This document shows, one piece after another, positions 16,514 through 23,624 of a DNA stretch of 26,029 nucleotides. The notes below the pieces were generated by a model. That model made no database searches and was not told the DNA's origin. It saw nothing but the letters and a program-made list of their open reading frames with translations. Source of the DNA: a virus. The DNA lies in IMG/VR virus record IMGVR_UViG_3300037087_000069, positions 1 through 26,029 of that record, one strand, 5' to 3'. How positions within the stretch are numbered: position 1 is the stretch's first letter; every line of letters begins with the position of its first letter. The position numbers and the translations under genes are program-made.

Positions 16514-18121
16514 TCATGGCTTCGGCATCGGTATTACAGGTTCAGGAACAACTTCAGGTGTTTTATCCCCTGTCGGTACCGGGTCCTCTTCTGGAAGCCC
16601 CGTTTCGGTATCCTGCCCATCCTCATTATCCCAATCATTCAGGTCCATTATATCCGAATATGTCATTCCAGAGAAAGCTTTGTGCTTTGCCATATCTGAA
16701 AGACCTTTGTCAAATTCTTCCTGCGTATCCGGTGTAAGTTCAGGATAGAACCGCTGGTAGAAATTGTACATAATCTCTTTCGAAATTCCGGCAGATGTAA
16801 CGAGCGATGACATCGCAGAGGCGAAACTACCGAGAATCTGCGCTTTGATGCGCTCCGGAATAAGATCAAGGGCATTCCACTCAATTTCTACGGGTATATC
16901 CGGAATAATGGCAAGTTTGGCCATTGCCCGGATTCTTGCCGTGGCCTGAAAAAGCTTTTTATATGGCTCTATCTTCTGGTCTTGCTTGTCGCCGATGAAT
17001 TGAACGACGAGATCGACTTGGTTATCTGCGCTGGCAAGATTGCCCTCTACTTTGGTTCCCCACATGAGTTCAGGTATTCCTGAGCCCTGCACGAGCTTCC
17101 AATAGATTTGAGATAGCTTTTTCTCATATGCGTCATGGGCTCCTTGCGGCCAAAGATATTCCGTCTTTTCCTTGTCGTACAGGTTGAGAATGAAATCATT
17201 CATCGCGACATCGAGTTCGGTGATATCGGCGAACCCGTTGTTCTTGAGCCACATTTCAGGATCGGACACGCTCTGAATCTGTTTTGGCTTGAACCGGATG
17301 AGGAACTGAGACGATGCGAGATCGGTATCGTGATAGTTTTTTAGATCGGTAAGAATGCGCTCATAATCTGAATGTCCGCGCACTTCGTTTCCGTCCCGGT
17401 TATTTGCGAACGGAATAGGCAGAATCCCGAGAACGTTATTGAAAGTCATCGTCTTGAGATACCCGGGAAGCGCGGTATTCCCTCCAAGCCATTCGACGAC
17501 AAGCTTTTCTTTCGTAAACGAGCGTCTTCTCCGCACGATCGCAACCGTGAGATAATCAACAGTAACGACGAGTTCCTCGTCAACTATGAGCTTTACGACT
17601 TCCCCGGTTTCGAGATCGCGCACAATATCGGAAATGGAGTCGTCCGGGATAAACTCCCAAACGTCCTTATTAAGCTTAGAAGACCAGAAAGGCCATATCC
17701 AGCATGTCGCGTCTCTATGGCTCTGTAAATGGATCATGCGGAAATCTGCGGAATGATCCTCAACGATCCGGGTATATTCAGCCTGCAAATTCTCGTCTTT
17801 GACTTTCGGTATCGGCATACCCATGAGCATGAGAGGAACCATGATCGGCGTGAATGCGAGCGATCCGGCGAGTTTGAGCCCCGGTGCAGCGTTATGCCAT
17901 AGCCCACGGGTAAGAGCGATATTACAGGCAAATCCGTCAGTCCAATCCACGGTCTGCGGTCGGCGTGTCGGATAGAGAATAGGGTTGACGACCTTTTGCT
18001 GTATGTCATTTCGCTCCCATACTGGATCGTAGAACATCATCTGCCATTGATAGGTGTTCATGGCGGACCCGTTCTTATTTCGCGGTATGTCTTCGAACAC
18101 GTTATTCTGTGAAAAGCTCAT
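16514..18121 (-). CDS. Portal protein
   Basis: The 535-residue product is the portal, the dodecameric ring through which DNA is packaged. It lies right after the large terminase (4-base ATGA overlap) and before the minor head gene. It has the expected layout: a short N-terminal part (MSFSQNNVFEDIPRNKNGSA), a wing-like beta-rich part (VWEFIPDDSISDIVRDLETGEV), and a central core with LPIPFANNRDGNEVRGHSDY and LKNYHDTDLASSQFLIRF. Long helices follow, including EKKLSQIYWKLVQGSGIPE and MWGTKVEGNLASADNQVD, a segment typical of portal crown/clip regions. The C-terminus is acidic and proline-rich (EEDPVPTGDKTPEVVPEP), probably disordered. I do not assign a sequence subfamily. Length and position make the call secure. 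Confidence 0.88.
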   Translation of the reverse strand: MSFSQNNVFEDIPRNKNGSAMNTYQWQMMFYDPVWERNDIQQKVVNPILYPTRRPQTVDWTDGFACNIALTRGLWHNAAPGLKLAGSLAFTPIMVPLMLMGMPIPKVKDENLQAEYTRIVEDHSADFRMIHLQSHRDATCWIWPFWSSKLNKDVWEFIPDDSISDIVRDLETGEVVKLIVDEELVVTVDYLTVAIVRRRRSFTKEKLVVEWLGGNTALPGYLKTMTFNNVLGILPIPFANNRDGNEVRGHSDYERILTDLKNYHDTDLASSQFLIRFKPKQIQSVSDPEMWLKNNGFADITELDVAMNDFILNLYDKEKTEYLWPQGAHDAYEKKLSQIYWKLVQGSGIPELMWGTKVEGNLASADNQVDLVVQFIGDKQDQKIEPYKKLFQATARIRAMAKLAIIPDIPVEIEWNALDLIPERIKAQILGSFASAMSSLVTSAGISKEIMYNFYQRFYPELTPDTQEEFDKGLSDMAKHKAFSGMTYSDIMDLNDWDNEDGQDTETGLPEEDPVPTGDKTPEVVPEPVIPMPKP

Positions 18122-19434
18122 CTCTGCCTCCTCTTCGCCATTCCATCGCGGATAGACTTATCGAATAGTATATCATTTCCAGCATAACACAACAACAAAG
18201 CATCAGCCTTATCTGGAGATTTCCCACCATTGCGTTTTTTATAAACATCCTTCGGCTCTATTTTTTTCCTGCTATATTTGTCATATCCATATCTTCGACC
18301 TGATAATTGGGACATCAATTCCGGATCATCGGGAATATCAGCCTCATCCATAGGGAATTCGAACCACATCTCATCAGCCTTGGTTTCATATAAATCTTGA
18401 TTCGAAGCTCTTTCACCGAATCCTACCTCAATAACCTTTGCACCTTTCTTCCTCAATACGTCGATAACGCCAGGGTTATATCCTGAATCAATCTTTATCG
18501 CATACGAAGGATCCCTATCGGCCATATCCCAAACCGCGTCAGCGACTTCGTTTGTATCATATCCATGAACTTCTTTATGTCTCACCGTCTTCATGCCCTT
18601 GCGTCTATAAATATCTGTATTGTCTTTGCCGAATCTGGCAACATCCACACCCAATTCAGTCGCCCCTATCGCTTCTACATTCCGCGCCATGGCCCCGCGT
18701 ATACTTGCTCTATCCCAAACGCAATTGTCAGCCTGATTTTGAGGCTCCCCGCCCCATGTATGCTCTGCCAGGGCAGGATCTCGCTTATAGTCTTCTTCCA
18801 TTTCCCTTTGAAGTTCGTCAGTCCACCATGGATTGTCTATCCTTCCTGCTTCGCATTTGATAACTACGCTATCATCGCGCTGATGTTTCACGAATCTCTC
18901 ATAGACAGGATCAGCTTCTTTGACCCTGTTAAAATTGACCCATAACTCGCTGCCCGGCTTCCTGAGAGTAGGAATAAGAACATTCCACGATTCATCAGTA
19001 AGCCTTGCTGCTTCTTCACACCAAAAAACATCGAAATCCTCATACCCTTTTATAGCCTCGGATGCGCGAAGATCATGCATTCCCCTGAAGGTGAAATACG
19101 ATCCGCACGGAGAATAGATATGCTCTTTCTGGATTATCCATCCCGGATAGCGTAGGCGTTCTATGGTGTTTTTGATTATCTTATGGACTGATTCTTCGAT
19201 TGAAAGCTGTACTTCTCGAGTACAAAGTATCTTAATTTTCTCCCTGTGCGCACGCTGCACAAGCAAGGATGCAAATCCCCATGTTTTAGCGCCTGCACCA
19301 CGGCCCCCGTAAACAACTTTGATCCTGCGCGGCTCTCGAAGGATTTCGAGCTTAGGGCTTACCCTTTCAAGTTCTTCCTGTTCAAGCAAATAGATATCAC
19401 GCTCGAGTTCTTCCCGGCTACGCTTTGCGGCCAT
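18118..19434 (-). CDS. terL: Terminase large subunit
   Basis: A 438-residue DNA packaging motor with both domains visible. The ATPase has an unusual Walker A-like segment GGRGAGAKT (residues 43-51), Walker B DVFWCEEA (135-142) and a coupling-motif-like NFNR (167-170). The conserved neighbourhood ILCTREVQLSIEESVHKII places it in the PBSX-type Terminase_3 group. The nuclease domain has the RuvC-like acidic set: LGVDVARFGKD (Asp264), IKIDSGYN (Asp316) and PDKADALLL (Asp411). ATG at 19434 follows AAGGA and overlaps the IbrB-like gene by 17 bases. It cuts concatemers and pumps DNA through the portal encoded next. The Walker A has an extra Ala before the Lys compared with the common GGRGSGKS form. 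Confidence 0.95.
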   Translation of the reverse strand: MAAKRSREELERDIYLLEQEELERVSPKLEILREPRRIKVVYGGRGAGAKTWGFASLLVQRAHREKIKILCTREVQLSIEESVHKIIKNTIERLRYPGWIIQKEHIYSPCGSYFTFRGMHDLRASEAIKGYEDFDVFWCEEAARLTDESWNVLIPTLRKPGSELWVNFNRVKEADPVYERFVKHQRDDSVVIKCEAGRIDNPWWTDELQREMEEDYKRDPALAEHTWGGEPQNQADNCVWDRASIRGAMARNVEAIGATELGVDVARFGKDNTDIYRRKGMKTVRHKEVHGYDTNEVADAVWDMADRDPSYAIKIDSGYNPGVIDVLRKKGAKVIEVGFGERASNQDLYETKADEMWFEFPMDEADIPDDPELMSQLSGRRYGYDKYSRKKIEPKDVYKKRNGGKSPDKADALLLCYAGNDILFDKSIRDGMAKRRQR

Positions 19435-20068
19435 ATTTTTTCCTTAGAAGGATCTGATTTCTCGATTCCCACGACTTTGAATACTCAGTATTCTCGAATA
19501 ATTTCGAAAAGCCTGTAATATGTTTTAAGCGAAGGAGCTCTTCAGGTTCCATTCCGAGCTGATTACATATCTCTTTATCATCCCATCCGCCGTCAAGCAT
19601 TTCGAATACTATATTCGCCATCCCTTTTACTGAATGTTTCCCACGGGCCCGGTTATGCCTGATAGTCGAAGCCATCCTGTCATTGATATCTTTATCAATT
19701 ATAACAATTGGCAGCATCCCTTTATTCCTATCGTAAATATCCTTATTGTTCTTACATACAAAATATCGGTGAAAGCCGTCAACGATTATATACTTGTCAA
19801 TCTCCTTATCGTAGATTGTTACGATTGGCTGAGTGTATCCGTCGTTAAGAATCGAAACATAAAGAAGCTTCATCTCGATCTTGGCTACTGAATTAGGATT
19901 ATAATCATTAGCTTGTATTTTATCGACAGGCACCCATAATACACGGTCAATAGGTTGGCTTTTAAGTTCAGATAATTCTTTGTGTATCCAATCACGTATG
20001 GTGTTGAGAAACTCGATCTTATCATCCTTCTCGTTATATTCCTTTTTTAAATCAACTAGATAATTCAT
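19418..20068 (-). CDS. ibrB: IbrB-like ParB/sulfiredoxin-fold protein
   Basis: A 216-residue ParB-type protein that I recognise as IbrB-like. It has VPVDKIQANDYNPNSVA (47-62), ILNDGYTQPIVT (73-84), DKYIIVDGFHRYFV (91-104), the DGFHR nucleotide-site motif, TIRHNRARGKH (135-145), and a helical end with NQLGMEPEELLRLKHITGF. E. coli IbrB works with IbrA to control immunoglobulin-binding protein genes. Related ParB-fold proteins have CTP-hydrolysing, nuclease or DNA-binding roles. An IbrA-like gene lies two genes upstream. I use ATG at 20068, one base past the methyltransferase stop, with GGAA upstream. ATGs at 20077 or 20104 are also possible. Function in phage is unknown; DNA modification or regulation is plausible. 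Confidence 0.85.
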   Translation of the reverse strand: MNYLVDLKKEYNEKDDKIEFLNTIRDWIHKELSELKSQPIDRVLWVPVDKIQANDYNPNSVAKIEMKLLYVSILNDGYTQPIVTIYDKEIDKYIIVDGFHRYFVCKNNKDIYDRNKGMLPIVIIDKDINDRMASTIRHNRARGKHSVKGMANIVFEMLDGGWDDKEICNQLGMEPEELLRLKHITGFSKLFENTEYSKSWESRNQILLRKKYGRKA

Positions 20069-20069
20069 A

Positions 20070-20690
20070 TCATACATTCCGTATGAAGTCGACCAAAATT
20101 GCAAGTCTTTTTTTATTCAATTCAGTGCCTACAAATCTTTTATTATTTAGATATGCATATTTACCGACCAAGCCTCTACCCATACATAAATCTCCAATAC
20201 AAGTATAAGAATGATTCTTACAAATCCATTCTATTATTTTCTCTTCATCTAAATTTTGCAATTCAGGATAATATAAACTGTTATTGCAAGATTGAATTAT
20301 CCAGCATTTATTTTTAACATTATTATAATATTTGGATTCATAGATAACTACATTTGTAAATCTTTTTTCGCACTCATTTATAAAAATATTTTTATTGCTC
20401 TTAAATACCTCTAAAAATAAATATTTAGGTTTTATTTCATCTATTCTTTTAAAAAGAGATTTATAAAATATATCAAATGAATTATAATTTTGTTGATCTG
20501 CTTTTGTATAAAAAGTAGTAAGATTACCTTTGCTGCATGGAGGATCACAAAAAATAGTATCCGCCTCTTTCATGAATTCAGGTAATTCTAATATCAAATC
20601 ACATACTTTAAGGCTTGATTTATTAGGCAGTTCAATAACTCCATTCATATTATATTTTTTATATATTCCCCCATATTCCCATTTATTCAT
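20070..20690 (-). CDS. Putative DNA amino-methyltransferase, very AT-rich
   Basis: A 206-residue protein with DNA N6-adenine/N4-cytosine methyltransferase features. Residues 43-52 contain ADTIFCDPPC, a variant of catalytic motif IV (usually DPPY/NPPY). Residues 165-185 contain IGDLCMGRGLVG, a motif I-like SAM site, followed by FVGTELNKKRL. The order IV then I is that of beta-class enzymes. Having C in place of Y in DPPC is unusual, so activity is not certain. The start is ATG at 20690, with AAGGAG seven bases upstream. The gene has extreme base composition (12 G/C in 60 at 20281-20340, against 26 in 60 at 21001-21060 in its neighbour), a strong sign of recent transfer. It sits between the IbrA- and IbrB-like genes. 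Confidence 0.75.
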   Translation of the reverse strand: MNKWEYGGIYKKYNMNGVIELPNKSSLKVCDLILELPEFMKEADTIFCDPPCSKGNLTTFYTKADQQNYNSFDIFYKSLFKRIDEIKPKYLFLEVFKSNKNIFINECEKRFTNVVIYESKYYNNVKNKCWIIQSCNNSLYYPELQNLDEEKIIEWICKNHSYTCIGDLCMGRGLVGKYAYLNNKRFVGTELNKKRLAILVDFIRNV

Positions 20691-20691
20691 A

Positions 20692-21822
20692 TTAAATCTC
20701 CTTTTTTCCAAAATGCCCTCTACCTGCTTTTTTGACTATATCATAATTAACCGGATCGCGTTCTCGATTGCCTAATGTTGTAAACTCAAAATCATTTAAA
20801 ATAAGAGTATTAACGCAAGCCCTGTTCATTAATTCATAACAGCTCAACCCGTCGTATTTCTTATCAACTTGGTCAAACTTTTTCTTGTATATTACTTTAT
20901 CAGTATTTATAGAAATCAATTTATCAAGTAAGTAATCTCGGTACTCTTTCCAATCTTTAAACATATAAGGGAGATCGTAACTATAAAAATCTTTAGCCCC
21001 AAAATGAGCAGCTGTATTGATTCCGTCTAATCTCGCGGATATTTTTTCCCATGTAGCCGGTTCTATTTCTTGCAATAAAAATAGAGAATGCACGGATGTT
21101 TCATGGTGTAGATTGGATACCCTCATTTTCTGTGCTGAAATACCGTATCGATAATATTCGTCGTACACTTTATTGTAATCGCATTTATGATCGAATATAT
21201 ATTTCCATATATCGGAATAACTCCAATCGTAAAGCGGATAAAAAGTATAATGCTCGAGTCTTTTATTCAGCGTCTTGCCGTATGTAACGTGCTTATACTT
21301 CGCGTAATGAGTAAGCGCCAAAAATCTGGTAGGGCTTTCCTCTGCTCGTACACCCGCGATATATGCCGTCTTTGTCGAATTGAATAAGACCTTGATTATA
21401 GCGGCGAATAGATCGTGGAATCTGTCAGTTCCGAATACATTCTCAGTGATCGCCAATTCTGATTTCGGCCTCATCCAGTTTTTCTCATCTTCCGGATTCC
21501 AGCACATAAGCCATTTATTAGAATGTGAAGTAGCATTGAGTATCTTTATTGGCATTTGGAACCATAGAGGATTGATTCCCTTTTTATGCATTACTCGATC
21601 TACATAGTCTATAGTACTTTGCCATTCGGCTTCCTGGTCTATGAAGATCACATTTAATGGTAACCTTTTTCTCCTCTTTGCTACCTCAAGGCATAGATTC
21701 AAAATCACCGTCGAATCCTTGCCGCCCGAAAAGGATACTATGATATTGGGAAATTCGTCGAAGAGATATTCAATCCGTTCTATAGCCTTATCATAGACAT
21801 TGGCCGATCCGTAGATCTTCAT
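20692..21822 (-). CDS. ibrA: IbrA-like PP-loop (PAPS reductase-family) protein
   Basis: A 376-residue PP-loop ATPase-type protein. The motif FSGGKDSTV is at residues 31-39, with VYDKAIERIEYLFDEFPNI before it and LPLNVIFIDQEAEWQSTI after it. Later segments (WMRPKSELAITENVFG, IAGVRAEESPTRFLAL, PLYDWSYSDIWKYIF) match the DUF3440/IbrA type of the phosphoadenosine-phosphosulfate reductase superfamily. These proteins activate substrates with ATP. DndC, used in DNA phosphorothioation, is a distant relative. There is a short AGGG site before ATG 21822, and the start overlaps the upstream methyltransferase stop (ATGA). Enzyme function in phage is not known. Association with methyltransferases and ParB-like genes suggests a nucleic acid substrate or regulatory role. 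Confidence 0.88.
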   Translation of the reverse strand: MKIYGSANVYDKAIERIEYLFDEFPNIIVSFSGGKDSTVILNLCLEVAKRRKRLPLNVIFIDQEAEWQSTIDYVDRVMHKKGINPLWFQMPIKILNATSHSNKWLMCWNPEDEKNWMRPKSELAITENVFGTDRFHDLFAAIIKVLFNSTKTAYIAGVRAEESPTRFLALTHYAKYKHVTYGKTLNKRLEHYTFYPLYDWSYSDIWKYIFDHKCDYNKVYDEYYRYGISAQKMRVSNLHHETSVHSLFLLQEIEPATWEKISARLDGINTAAHFGAKDFYSYDLPYMFKDWKEYRDYLLDKLISINTDKVIYKKKFDQVDKKYDGLSCYELMNRACVNTLILNDFEFTTLGNRERDPVNYDIVKKAGRGHFGKKEI

Positions 21823-22610
21823 TTTTGCCCTGAGATTATGATGAAATTATGATAGTCAATTCTATCGCCCGGCAGATATTCATGATTGCAGATTGAATGC
21901 TTGAGTTGTATACAGGCGAGATCATATGTCTTTGGCTTATAATCCGGCTGATAGAACATGATAAAGTATCGGCCCCCGTCCTTAACGTAATCGAGTATAT
22001 CTATGACTGAGCGCTCCTCTATATAGCTCGCAGCCCCGAATAAAGATATTACAAGATCAAACTTCGCGTTAAAGTAAAATGATTCGAAGCATGAATGCTG
22101 GACCTCGGAATGAGGATGTTTCGCCTTTAACAATGCGAGCATATTCAATGATGAATCTATGCCGAGGTAATTGCTCGTTTTGCAGTTATCGAGAAATAGA
22201 CCGGTACCGCACCCTATATCAAGCACCGATTCACCCTCTTTATGTCCAATCATGGACATTATTTCAGCATTCTCTTTCACGCTATTTTCATCGGTGAAGA
22301 AAGAATCGTATTTCTCGGCTATAGCATCATACGGACTTGATTTCTTCAGCTTTGCCCTATTTATCAGAATGGTTGTTTCAATCGGATCCCCCATGGTCCA
22401 ATAGCAATAATCATTCACATCCAAATATCGATAGGTACGCTTCCCAAAAGATCTTGAATACCCTTTGGCCCGTATGTAGAGTACTACGTCGATAAAATCT
22501 TGATCTGATTTCCAGTTCTTCCGGAGAGAATAATCATGCGGCATTTGCGGCATTGTCTTTGCGAATATCCATACCTGCTCTATGAGCTGTTGCGCTACTT
22601 TGTTGAACAT
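21819..22610 (-). CDS. Two-domain SAM-dependent methyltransferase
   Basis: The 263-residue product has two parts. Residues 1-90 form a separate domain with QVWIFAKTMPQMPHDYSLR, RTYRYLDVNDYCYWTMGDPIE and TTILINRAK. I recall similar stretches, with a Trp-start, 'TMP-x2-PH-Y', 'Y-x-Y-L-x(4)-Y-x-YW' and 'T-x2-NR', in phage and bacterial proteins of unknown role. Residues 120-263 are a class I methyltransferase: motif I VLDIGCGTGLFLDN (129-142), YLGIDSSLNM (147-156) and FDLVISLFGAASY. ATG at 22610 overlaps the stop of the ParB-like gene (TAATG) and has no strong ribosome site, so coupling is likely. The substrate is unknown. DNA, RNA or a small molecule are possible, and the genetic company favours nucleic acid. 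Confidence 0.8.
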   Translation of the reverse strand: MFNKVAQQLIEQVWIFAKTMPQMPHDYSLRKNWKSDQDFIDVVLYIRAKGYSRSFGKRTYRYLDVNDYCYWTMGDPIETTILINRAKLKKSSPYDAIAEKYDSFFTDENSVKENAEIMSMIGHKEGESVLDIGCGTGLFLDNCKTSNYLGIDSSLNMLALLKAKHPHSEVQHSCFESFYFNAKFDLVISLFGAASYIEERSVIDILDYVKDGGRYFIMFYQPDYKPKTYDLACIQLKHSICNHEYLPGDRIDYHNFIIISGQK

Positions 22611-23206
22611 TATGCACTCACTTCGAATTGATGAGCGCATTCGGGACAGACAACCGCTATTTTGCGCGTACTCTTAACTATTTTTGTAGATAGCTTTTTC
22701 TTGCCCTTGTCGATATCGTCCTGACTGACATCCTTATTCGATTGCTCTGGATTCTCATTCGGATCGAATAACACCCTCTTTACATCTTCGTCTACCAGCC
22801 TGAGTTGATCGTTTATTTCGTCATCGATTCCGTCAAGCCATTTTGAGAGCTCGTCTTCATTCCATTCTCCATACTGCGAAGATATCGAAAGAAGAATCTC
22901 TTTGGCTTTCTCCTCTGATTCGGCGTCGATATATACAACGGGAATCTTAGGAATCAGATACCCGTCTTCCTGAAGAGATAAAAGCGCGGCCCGGCGCTGA
23001 GTACCATCAAGAATCTTATTCTTTTTCCCGGTACTCCATATAAAGATAGGAGCGCAGAATCCGGCCTGAAGAATCCTACTTTTTAATTTCTTGAGATTGG
23101 TTTTTGTTAGTTTCTTGAGATTCCCCTGAAGCACTGATAACTGGCTTATCGGCAACTCCGCCGCAGCCTTGCAGGTTATCCTTATCGTTTTGGTTCTCTT
23201 TGCCAT
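22610..23206 (-). CDS. ParB-like nuclease-fold protein with C-terminal CxxC
   Basis: A 198-residue ParB-domain protein. Visible are ELPISQLSVLQGN near the start, the ILQAGFCAPIFIW segment and KILDGTQRRAAL, the ParB 'DG-x-(Q/H)RR' motif. These are followed by LSISSQYGEWNEDELSKWL, common in phage ParB-like proteins associated with methyltransferases. The C-terminal 40 residues contain a single CPEC pair (AVVCPECAHQFEVSA), an incomplete zinc-ribbon. ATG at 23206 has a strong AAGGAG site eight bases upstream. It lies inside the preceding gene, giving a 131-base out-of-frame overlap. It is the first gene of the island between the terminase genes, ahead of the methyltransferase and the IbrA-like protein. 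Confidence 0.85.
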   Translation of the reverse strand: MAKRTKTIRITCKAAAELPISQLSVLQGNLKKLTKTNLKKLKSRILQAGFCAPIFIWSTGKKNKILDGTQRRAALLSLQEDGYLIPKIPVVYIDAESEEKAKEILLSISSQYGEWNEDELSKWLDGIDDEINDQLRLVDEDVKRVLFDPNENPEQSNKDVSQDDIDKGKKKLSTKIVKSTRKIAVVCPECAHQFEVSA

Positions 23207-23624
23207 TCGCCCTACTCCTTCTACGTTCTATTAGTTCATTAATATATTTCTCTCGTTCCTTGTAAGACATACCCTGTACAGGGTCGATACCGCCCGTATG
23301 CTCGATCGGTTGAGCCGCTTTGCCAAATCCTCTTTCAACCAGCCATGAAAGTACGTCTATACGCCCCCTGGTTATATCGGCCAAGATCGCCTTTGCAACA
23401 CCCGATATGAGTACAGGGATATCTGGATTTGCAGCCATTTTGACTATTTCTTTTCTCGTTCTATCGAAAAAGTAAGCGGCTATCAATTTAATGTCTACTG
23501 TCGATAATCCGGTATCGATTATATATGCTCTTAACTTTGAAGGCTTCTTCCCGTGCTTGTCCGGCTGCTTATCTACAGAGAATCTTGTATTCTGTCCGTA
23601 CTTTGAAATATTAGGATTTGACAT
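23076..23624 (-). CDS. Terminase small subunit-like protein
   Basis: A 182-residue protein whose central part resembles phage small-terminase-type or DUF5681-like proteins. Features are a polar start (MSNPNISKYGQNTRFSVDK), a helical region STVDIKLIAAYFFDRTRKEI, and DVLSWLVERGFGKAAQPIEH, matching the usual '(L)-x2-(R/V)-x-(x)-GK-x2-Q-x-IE' ending. The C-terminal 50 residues are Gln/Asn/Ser-rich and probably disordered; this tail overlaps the ParB-like gene in another frame. ATG at 23624 lies just after a possible promoter, with no strong ribosome site. A role in recognising phage DNA for packaging is likely from its place ahead of terL, although the island separates them. Confidence 0.6.
   Translation of the reverse strand: MSNPNISKYGQNTRFSVDKQPDKHGKKPSKLRAYIIDTGLSTVDIKLIAAYFFDRTRKEIVKMAANPDIPVLISGVAKAILADITRGRIDVLSWLVERGFGKAAQPIEHTGGIDPVQGMSYKEREKYINELIERRRSRANGKENQNDKDNLQGCGGVADKPVISASGESQETNKNQSQEIKK

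Follow-up and report, generated by a model that had tools for sequence, protein, structure and literature searches.

A five-gene island at positions 19418-23206 (minus strand) of a viral DNA sequence appears, on balance, to be one version of a modular phage DNA-hypermodification cassette. The sequence, referred to here as the window, comprises 26,029 bases of the IMG/VR virus record IMGVR_UViG_3300037087_000069. The island encodes relatives of IbrA and IbrB of Escherichia coli, a PP-loop ATPase and a ParB/Srx-fold protein, which form the conserved core of the cassette and are adjacent in almost every locus. Around this core lies an exchangeable set of enzymes, including methyltransferases, glycosyltransferases, GNATs, a dioxygenase-fold protein and an AdoMet decarboxylase. 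The gene content, the pairing of the core genes, the swapping of the tailoring genes and the motifs can be seen directly in the loci compared. DNA is the likely target of the cassette, and we infer that its benefit is anti-restriction.

The IbrA-IbrB core and its recurrence

The genes of the island follow one another in the order ParB1, MT1, IbrA, MT2, IbrB, every gene overlapping or abutting its successor, directly upstream of the gene for the terminase large subunit (TerL), which IbrB overlaps by 17 bases. The features of the island are:

22610-23206, minus strand: ParB1, a ParB-like protein with a C-terminal CPxC knuckle (best PHROGs matches phrog_498, 1e-17, and phrog_620, 1e-13)
21819-22640, minus strand: MT1, a cl4 domain plus a class I S-adenosylmethionine (SAM) methyltransferase (Pfam Methyltransf_25, 2e-9, and Methyltransf_11)
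22341-22598, minus strand: the cl4 domain (FAKTMP..PHxY...YWTMGxP...INRA), recognised by gene clustering and family alignments
20692-21822, minus strand: IbrA, a PP-loop ATPase with a DUF3440 region (PF01507 PAPS_reduct, 9e-23; PF11922 DUF3440, 5e-11; phrog_2302, 1e-89)
20070-20711, minus strand: MT2, a permuted N6/N4-type methyltransferase (family alignment; Pfam N6_N4_Mtase, 0.007, weak alone)
19418-20104, minus strand: IbrB, a ParB/Srx-fold protein (phrog_2159, 2e-78)

A first-pass annotation had listed the same five open reading frames, which are exactly where it placed them, and its family assignments were upheld by the Pfam and PHROGs matches. Its two-domain SAM methyltransferase was right for one domain only, the other part of MT1 being the separate cl4 domain of about 100 amino acids. 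The start codons at 22610 (MT1), 20690 (MT2) and 20077 (IbrB) are probably a better choice than those of the longest reading frames.

IbrA and IbrB are found together across phages and cells. Among the 50,697 phage records of INPHARED, IbrA matched 216 and IbrB 218, and the nine commonest genus counts listed agree for the two (90, 55, 21, 12, 7, 6, 5, 4 and 3). A cellular scan with IbrB alone gave more than 500 matches; IbrA was present in 79 of the best 80, which were examined, and was almost always immediately adjacent. The co-occurrence of the two genes holds nearly without exception in both INPHARED and the cellular loci. Adjacency counts in the non-redundant locus set are lower bounds, as some IbrB genes that overlap a neighbour escaped the simple greedy gene caller. 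Cellular carriers include gut Firmicutes, Bacteroidota, Alphaproteobacteria and Asgard archaeal assemblies, and IbrA also matched 608 plasmid records. The archaeal pairs are found in Heimdall- and Lokiarchaeota assemblies (L089, L095, L139; L-numbers are labels of contigs or loci retrieved for comparison). In 32 of 70 non-redundant cellular loci IbrA has an SNF2-type helicase (PF00176 and PF00271) in its vicinity, in most cases as the gene just upstream. Helicase neighbours of this type, of about 417 amino acids (L054, L055, L058, L068-L137), are also seen in Streptococcus, Fusobacterium and Flavobacterium phages, and form a second, tailoring-free class.

Viral contigs scanned with IbrA yielded 49 loci, and clustering of their genes into families brought out a recurring plan: ParB1, cl4, between one and three transferases, IbrA, IbrB, TerL. 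The first-pass annotation knew of no other system with exactly the gene set of the island, but all five window families are present in L003 (ParB1, cl4-MT1, MT8, IbrA and IbrB, then TerL), where the N6/N4-type methyltransferase stands before IbrA and not after it. Four families are present in L014 and L063 (Flavobacterium sedimenticola), which are without the N6/N4-type methyltransferase only, and in L044 (ParB1, cl4-MT1, IbrA and, by direct search, IbrB). Because the same families recur jointly in dozens of independent loci, the island is not a chance grouping. In the cultured Microbacterium phage Rasputia, three glycosyltransferases, a GNAT, a methyltransferase and IbrA follow one another at one genome end, with three ParB genes and the terminase at the other. 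Two further kinds of neighbour were noted. A pair of amidoligase and gamma-glutamyl cyclotransferase genes adjoins the cassette, usually on the opposite strand, in L026, L032, L034, L036, L047, L152, L156 and L161-L164. A few genes past IbrA-IbrB, Fusobacterium phage phiFN37 (L055:9745-10918) has a further ParB gene and one resembling queuine tRNA-ribosyltransferase, the latter a kind of gene that is connected with 7-deazaguanine modification of DNA in other phages.

Exchange of the tailoring genes

The slots around the core are filled differently in different loci. After cl4, either fused to it or as the next gene, there is a class I methyltransferase in the window, L003, L014, L044 and L063, and in other loci a GNAT (L023; fused in L031, by Pfam) or glycosyltransferases. 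The last slot before IbrA can hold the dioxygenase-like protein, an N6/N4-like methyltransferase, a second permuted methyltransferase, or a GNAT. Exchange is clearest between close relatives. L020 and L042 have flanking DNA that is 90-94% identical and IbrA proteins that are 97.7% identical, and differ in a single cassette gene between cl4 and the GNAT, MT8 in the former versus a glycosyltransferase in the latter, with breakpoints at the gene borders. The IbrA proteins of L008 and L009-L013 are 98% identical, yet GT6-MT12 in the one corresponds to GT24-GNAT25 in the others, and those of L032/L034 and L033 are 94-97% identical, yet Ox13 is replaced by MT8. An IbrA tree of 68 rows, several of whose branches have poor support, calls for at least 23 changes in the tailoring genes; as some of its loci were retrieved with the dioxygenase-like protein, the figure applies to these loci and not to the population as a whole. 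A hypermodification cassette is expected to bring modifying and tailoring enzymes together in one place and to vary them among close relatives, and both are seen here.

The dioxygenase-like protein was used alone in a scan which gave 58 loci, 9 of them from contigs already in the set and 49 new. IbrA was found in all 49 new loci and IbrB in 45, three of the other four ending at a contig edge. The structural model of the protein has a predicted local distance difference test score (pLDDT) of 90, and its best PDB folds are aspartyl/asparaginyl hydroxylase (AspH) and proline hydroxylases (E 3e-4 to 1e-3). An invariant H-x-D...H agrees with Fe(II)/2-oxoglutarate oxygenases. As there was no significant sequence match in Pfam or PDB, the assignment is made at fold level, while the GNAT and AdoMet_dc families were assigned by Pfam. 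In two loci (L036:4990-6004 and L037:1355-2361) the AdoMet decarboxylase directly precedes an N6/N4-like methyltransferase with the motif DPPW, followed by IbrA, which suggests that an aminopropyl group, and not a methyl group, is transferred.

MT2, which separates IbrA from IbrB in the window, looks like a recently inserted exchangeable part; most relatives have the two core genes side by side. Of the 30 window genes it is by far the richest in AT (GC 25.5%, 19% at third codon positions, z = -3.5), as expected for such an insert. Its Pfam match is weak, but that of a family member in L003 is above the Pfam cutoff, and in the family alignment motif IV, DPP[C/W/Y], precedes motif I, D-x-C-x-G-x-G (DPPC at 20535-20546 and motif I at 20172-20195 in MT2). 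The order of the motifs and the DPP are kept throughout; the fourth residue of motif IV is Cys in the window and in L143, and Trp or Tyr in other relatives. Four close relatives were fetched with MT2 alone, and in all four cases IbrB is either the adjoining gene or separated by a single ParB gene. In the closest relative, MT2 is followed by a short, diverged PP-loop protein of 253 amino acids (L143:887-1648), possibly a second activating enzyme.

Could these genes be loosely associated morons, with orphan DNA methyltransferases and ParB genes gathered beside TerL and no common pathway? Gene order is variable, and ParB1-type genes are found also without IbrA and IbrB (L147, L148). However, homologues of the island genes are otherwise far from always single: IbrA-IbrB is nearly obligate, the dioxygenase-like gene is with IbrA in 49/49 new loci and MT2 with IbrB in 4/4, and we consider a chance collection of this kind improbable.

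Motifs and predicted chemistry

The PP-loop of IbrA, SGGKDS at about 21712-21729, is kept in 133 of 134 IbrA proteins. The same 134 proteins have no conserved cysteine, the best cysteine column holding 69/134 (27/34 among close relatives), and none carries ECGxH, the catalytic C-terminal motif of CysH. Together, these features point away from sulfur transfer and towards a substrate that is activated at the expense of ATP. TilS is a PP-loop enzyme which activates a base so that an amine replaces oxygen, on tRNA. IbrA shows the prerequisite for TilS-type chemistry, a PP-loop without sulfur-handling cysteines, which is necessary for it and not specific to it. From these motifs, the chances that IbrA acts by adenylation without sulfur are about even, and a lysidine-like amine substitution specifically is a tentative suggestion.

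The first-pass annotation had pointed to sulfur chemistry of the DndC kind. DNA phosphorothioation or another sulfur transfer would suit the distant kinship of IbrA with DndC and BrxP (PADLOC 3e-11 and 1e-14), and the Dnd, Ssp and BREX-4 systems share with these loci a PAPS reductase-like PP-loop enzyme and, in DndB, a ParB-related protein. DndC, however, relies on an Fe-S centre together with a cysteine dyad (PMC10853773), in contrast to the cysteine columns described above, and no desulfurase-, DndD-, DndE- or SspB/C-like gene, nor any sulfur carrier, was recognised among the labelled neighbouring families examined, a part of all neighbours. This reading, which was dropped on cysteine conservation, we consider very unlikely. 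Less likely still is a true 3'-phosphoadenosine 5'-phosphosulfate (PAPS) reductase serving sulfur assimilation as an auxiliary metabolic gene. It is the label given in phage papers (PMC10434257, PMC11318856) and by PHROGs phrog_2302, but it is at odds with the missing ECGxH motif, for which it was dropped, and with the obligate ParB-fold partner. Phage IbrA proteins placed in phrog_2302 and phrog_424 are counted as sulfur auxiliary metabolic genes under this label, though they are without the CysH motif.

In IbrB relatives DGFHR and RHNRARGxH are near-invariant, and weak sequence matches were obtained to structures of Noc, ParB and the free serine kinase SerK. ParB-fold proteins bind various NTPs (PMC12704722). 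In ParB1, N29, G68, R71 and the two cysteines of the knuckle do not vary among 34 distinct relatives.

The cl4 domain forms the N-terminus of MT1 and is a stand-alone gene in many relatives. It had no Pfam or PHROGs match as tested, and a PDB sequence search with it was unsuccessful. A stand-alone viral protein, A0A516LRX9, is a structural match (TMt 0.83); the fold is left without a named relative because the Foldseek search of MT1 in the PDB is dominated by the methyltransferase domain. Phlyer gp3, LiSara gp3 and 055SW001 gp82 were considered as cl4 members and do not align. The AlphaFold2 model of MT1 has a pLDDT of 91, and the fold neighbours of its methyltransferase include the amino-sugar N-methyltransferases TylM1 and DesVI. 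A single-protein scan with MT1 gave no match, nor did tblastn of MT1 and cl4 in INPHARED. Distant alignments of IbrA and of cl4 were too poorly conserved for use in alignment-driven scans. A CmoA/CmoX-type pathway was considered for MT1 and MT2 on account of DPPC; for MT1 it was set aside in favour of these TylM1-like neighbours, and MT2 may still belong to such a pathway.

DNA as the predicted target

We propose that IbrB, through its ParB/Srx fold, would bind DNA and a nucleotide, and that IbrA would use ATP to activate a base carbonyl, which a nitrogen nucleophile would then replace, as with TilS on tRNA. The core may thereby install a handle on the base. ParB1 and cl4 would be constant accessories, probably substrate-binding, and the exchangeable enzymes would cap the handle. 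In the window the caps would come from the TylM1-like methyltransferase fused to cl4 and the DNA-methylase-like enzyme with the altered motif DPPC; in relatives they would come from glycosyltransferases, GNATs, the 2-oxoglutarate oxygenase-fold protein, or the AdoMet decarboxylase with its methyltransferase. That a GNAT, an N-methyltransferase and glycosyltransferases stand in for one another would be in keeping with an amine or hydroxyl of the installed group as the site that is capped. Each swap would change the decoration and may help to evade host restriction, under the selection of an arms race. It is possible, though we hold it with less than even confidence, that IbrA-IbrB is a new DNA-base-modifying pair, acting by ATP-activation and probably amine substitution, that supplies a universal handle for swappable phage decorations.

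DNA is favoured as the target because of the constant ParB-fold partners, the DNA-methylase-like partners, the bacterial SNF2 translocase and the usual TerL neighbour, which is indication and not proof. The first-pass annotation had proposed a system that modifies phage DNA beside the packaging genes; the association is borne out, and modification of phage DNA is the best reading of the gene context. Its timing, immediately before packaging, was drawn from gene position and is not supported. That the cassette acts not on DNA but on tRNA, a nucleotide, a protein or a glycan, with proximity to TerL incidental, is a lesser possibility. PP-loop enzymes often act on tRNA, the closest folds of MT1 include amino-sugar N-methyltransferases, and glycosyltransferases and GNATs are common in glycan pathways, but the ParB-fold partners, the DPPW DNA-methylase-like partners, the helicase and the frequent TerL adjacency speak for DNA.

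Somewhat less probable is that IbrA and IbrB are transcriptional co-activators controlling late genes, with regulatory or unrelated methyltransferases. In E. coli they are known as co-activators of the eib genes, and both annotations and papers (PMC4490671, PMC5874904) give them this name in connection with the expression of prophage genes; ParB-type proteins do bind DNA. The conserved PP-loop catalytic motif and the swapped glycosyltransferase, acetyltransferase and oxygenase partners would be unexpected of a regulator, however, and a change in promoter state could itself follow from DNA modification.

Several points besides this naming weigh against a DNA-hypermodification cassette. A modified base has been demonstrated for no carrier. 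IbrA-IbrB is without recognised tailoring enzymes in many bacterial loci, in E. coli K-12 (ybdNM) and in some phages, so the core must be able to function alone. We know of no unexplained DNA modification in K-12, where, however, ybdNM is repressed. For the glycosyltransferases, GNATs and amino-sugar methyltransferases, glycans or small molecules are conceivable substrates too.

K-12 ybdN-ybdM (L150:4748-6570) is itself an IbrA-IbrB pair and offers a model of the core enzymes in a laboratory strain. The two families are the same and in the same order (335 bits to the IbrA profile and 217 to IbrB), but there is no ParB1, cl4, methyltransferase or terminase beside them, and in the window a methyltransferase splits the pair. 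Expression of ybdNM is repressed by CitR (PMC9068703). Blocks of ParB, IbrA and IbrB like that of the window occur in Mycobacterium phage Phlyer, with TerL adjacent, and in Arthrobacter phage LiSara and Bacillus phage 055SW001, with an annotated methyltransferase; unlike the window, these have no recognisable cl4 and fewer tailoring genes. The abstract of Iyer et al. 2013 (NAR 41:7635) reportedly predicts that phage bases undergo oxidation, glycosylation and modifications of SAM-derivative and lysidine-like kinds, and the paper may already contain part of this scheme, such as the IbrA-IbrB-cl4 set. A parallel in design is phage cytosine hypermodification by CmoX/CmoY, described in a 2025 carboxymethylcytosine paper, in which a handle is installed on the base and then tailored in an ATP-dependent manner, often with a ParB-domain gene nearby (PMC12783734). 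The core enzymes differ from those of the window: CmoX has the active site SPPC, as against DPPC in the permuted N6/N4-type fold of MT2, and no CmoA was identified in the window. Serratia phage eta was considered as a reportedly hypermodified ParB phage and rejected, as its DNA is unmodified and its paper contains no PAPS or IbrA term. Full-text searches found IbrA/IbrB of phages only as co-activators, putative virulence factors or PAPS-reductase auxiliary metabolic genes and, in the papers searched, no link to base modification, and a 2025 ParB-fold survey does not mention the pair under the names searched. The proposal, which falls within the established field of phage hypermodification, gives IbrA/IbrB, YbdN/YbdM of K-12 included, a testable role.

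Nearly all window genes lie on the minus strand (RusA, HNH, probable small terminase, island, TerL, head morphogenesis, head protease and tail). The island is flanked by:

18118-19434, minus strand: TerL, terminase large subunit (PF04466, 1e-29; TIGR01547 above cutoff)
23076-23624, minus strand: probable small terminase subunit (position and GFGKAAQPIEHTG-type motif; phrog_15125, of unknown function, 7e-14)

The placement between the terminase subunits given by the first-pass annotation is thus secure for TerL and only probable for the small subunit. The latter reading frame overlaps ParB1 by 131 bases (23076-23206), including the conserved start of the ParB domain. No tRNA or Rfam match was found in the window, and no ParA-like gene among the window proteins scanned, which were part of the open reading frames (parS was not searched).

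If the proposal is true, IbrA/IbrB of E. coli and YbdN/YbdM of K-12 would be DNA-modifying enzymes, not regulators or sulfur-assimilation genes. The pair now annotated as 'PAPS reductase' and 'ParB partition' would become a DNA-modifying core, many auxiliary metabolic gene annotations would be corrected, and new modified bases would be predicted in named culturable phages. It would also offer a chemical explanation for the effect of IbrA/IbrB on expression, and open up a set of swappable DNA-decorating enzymes.

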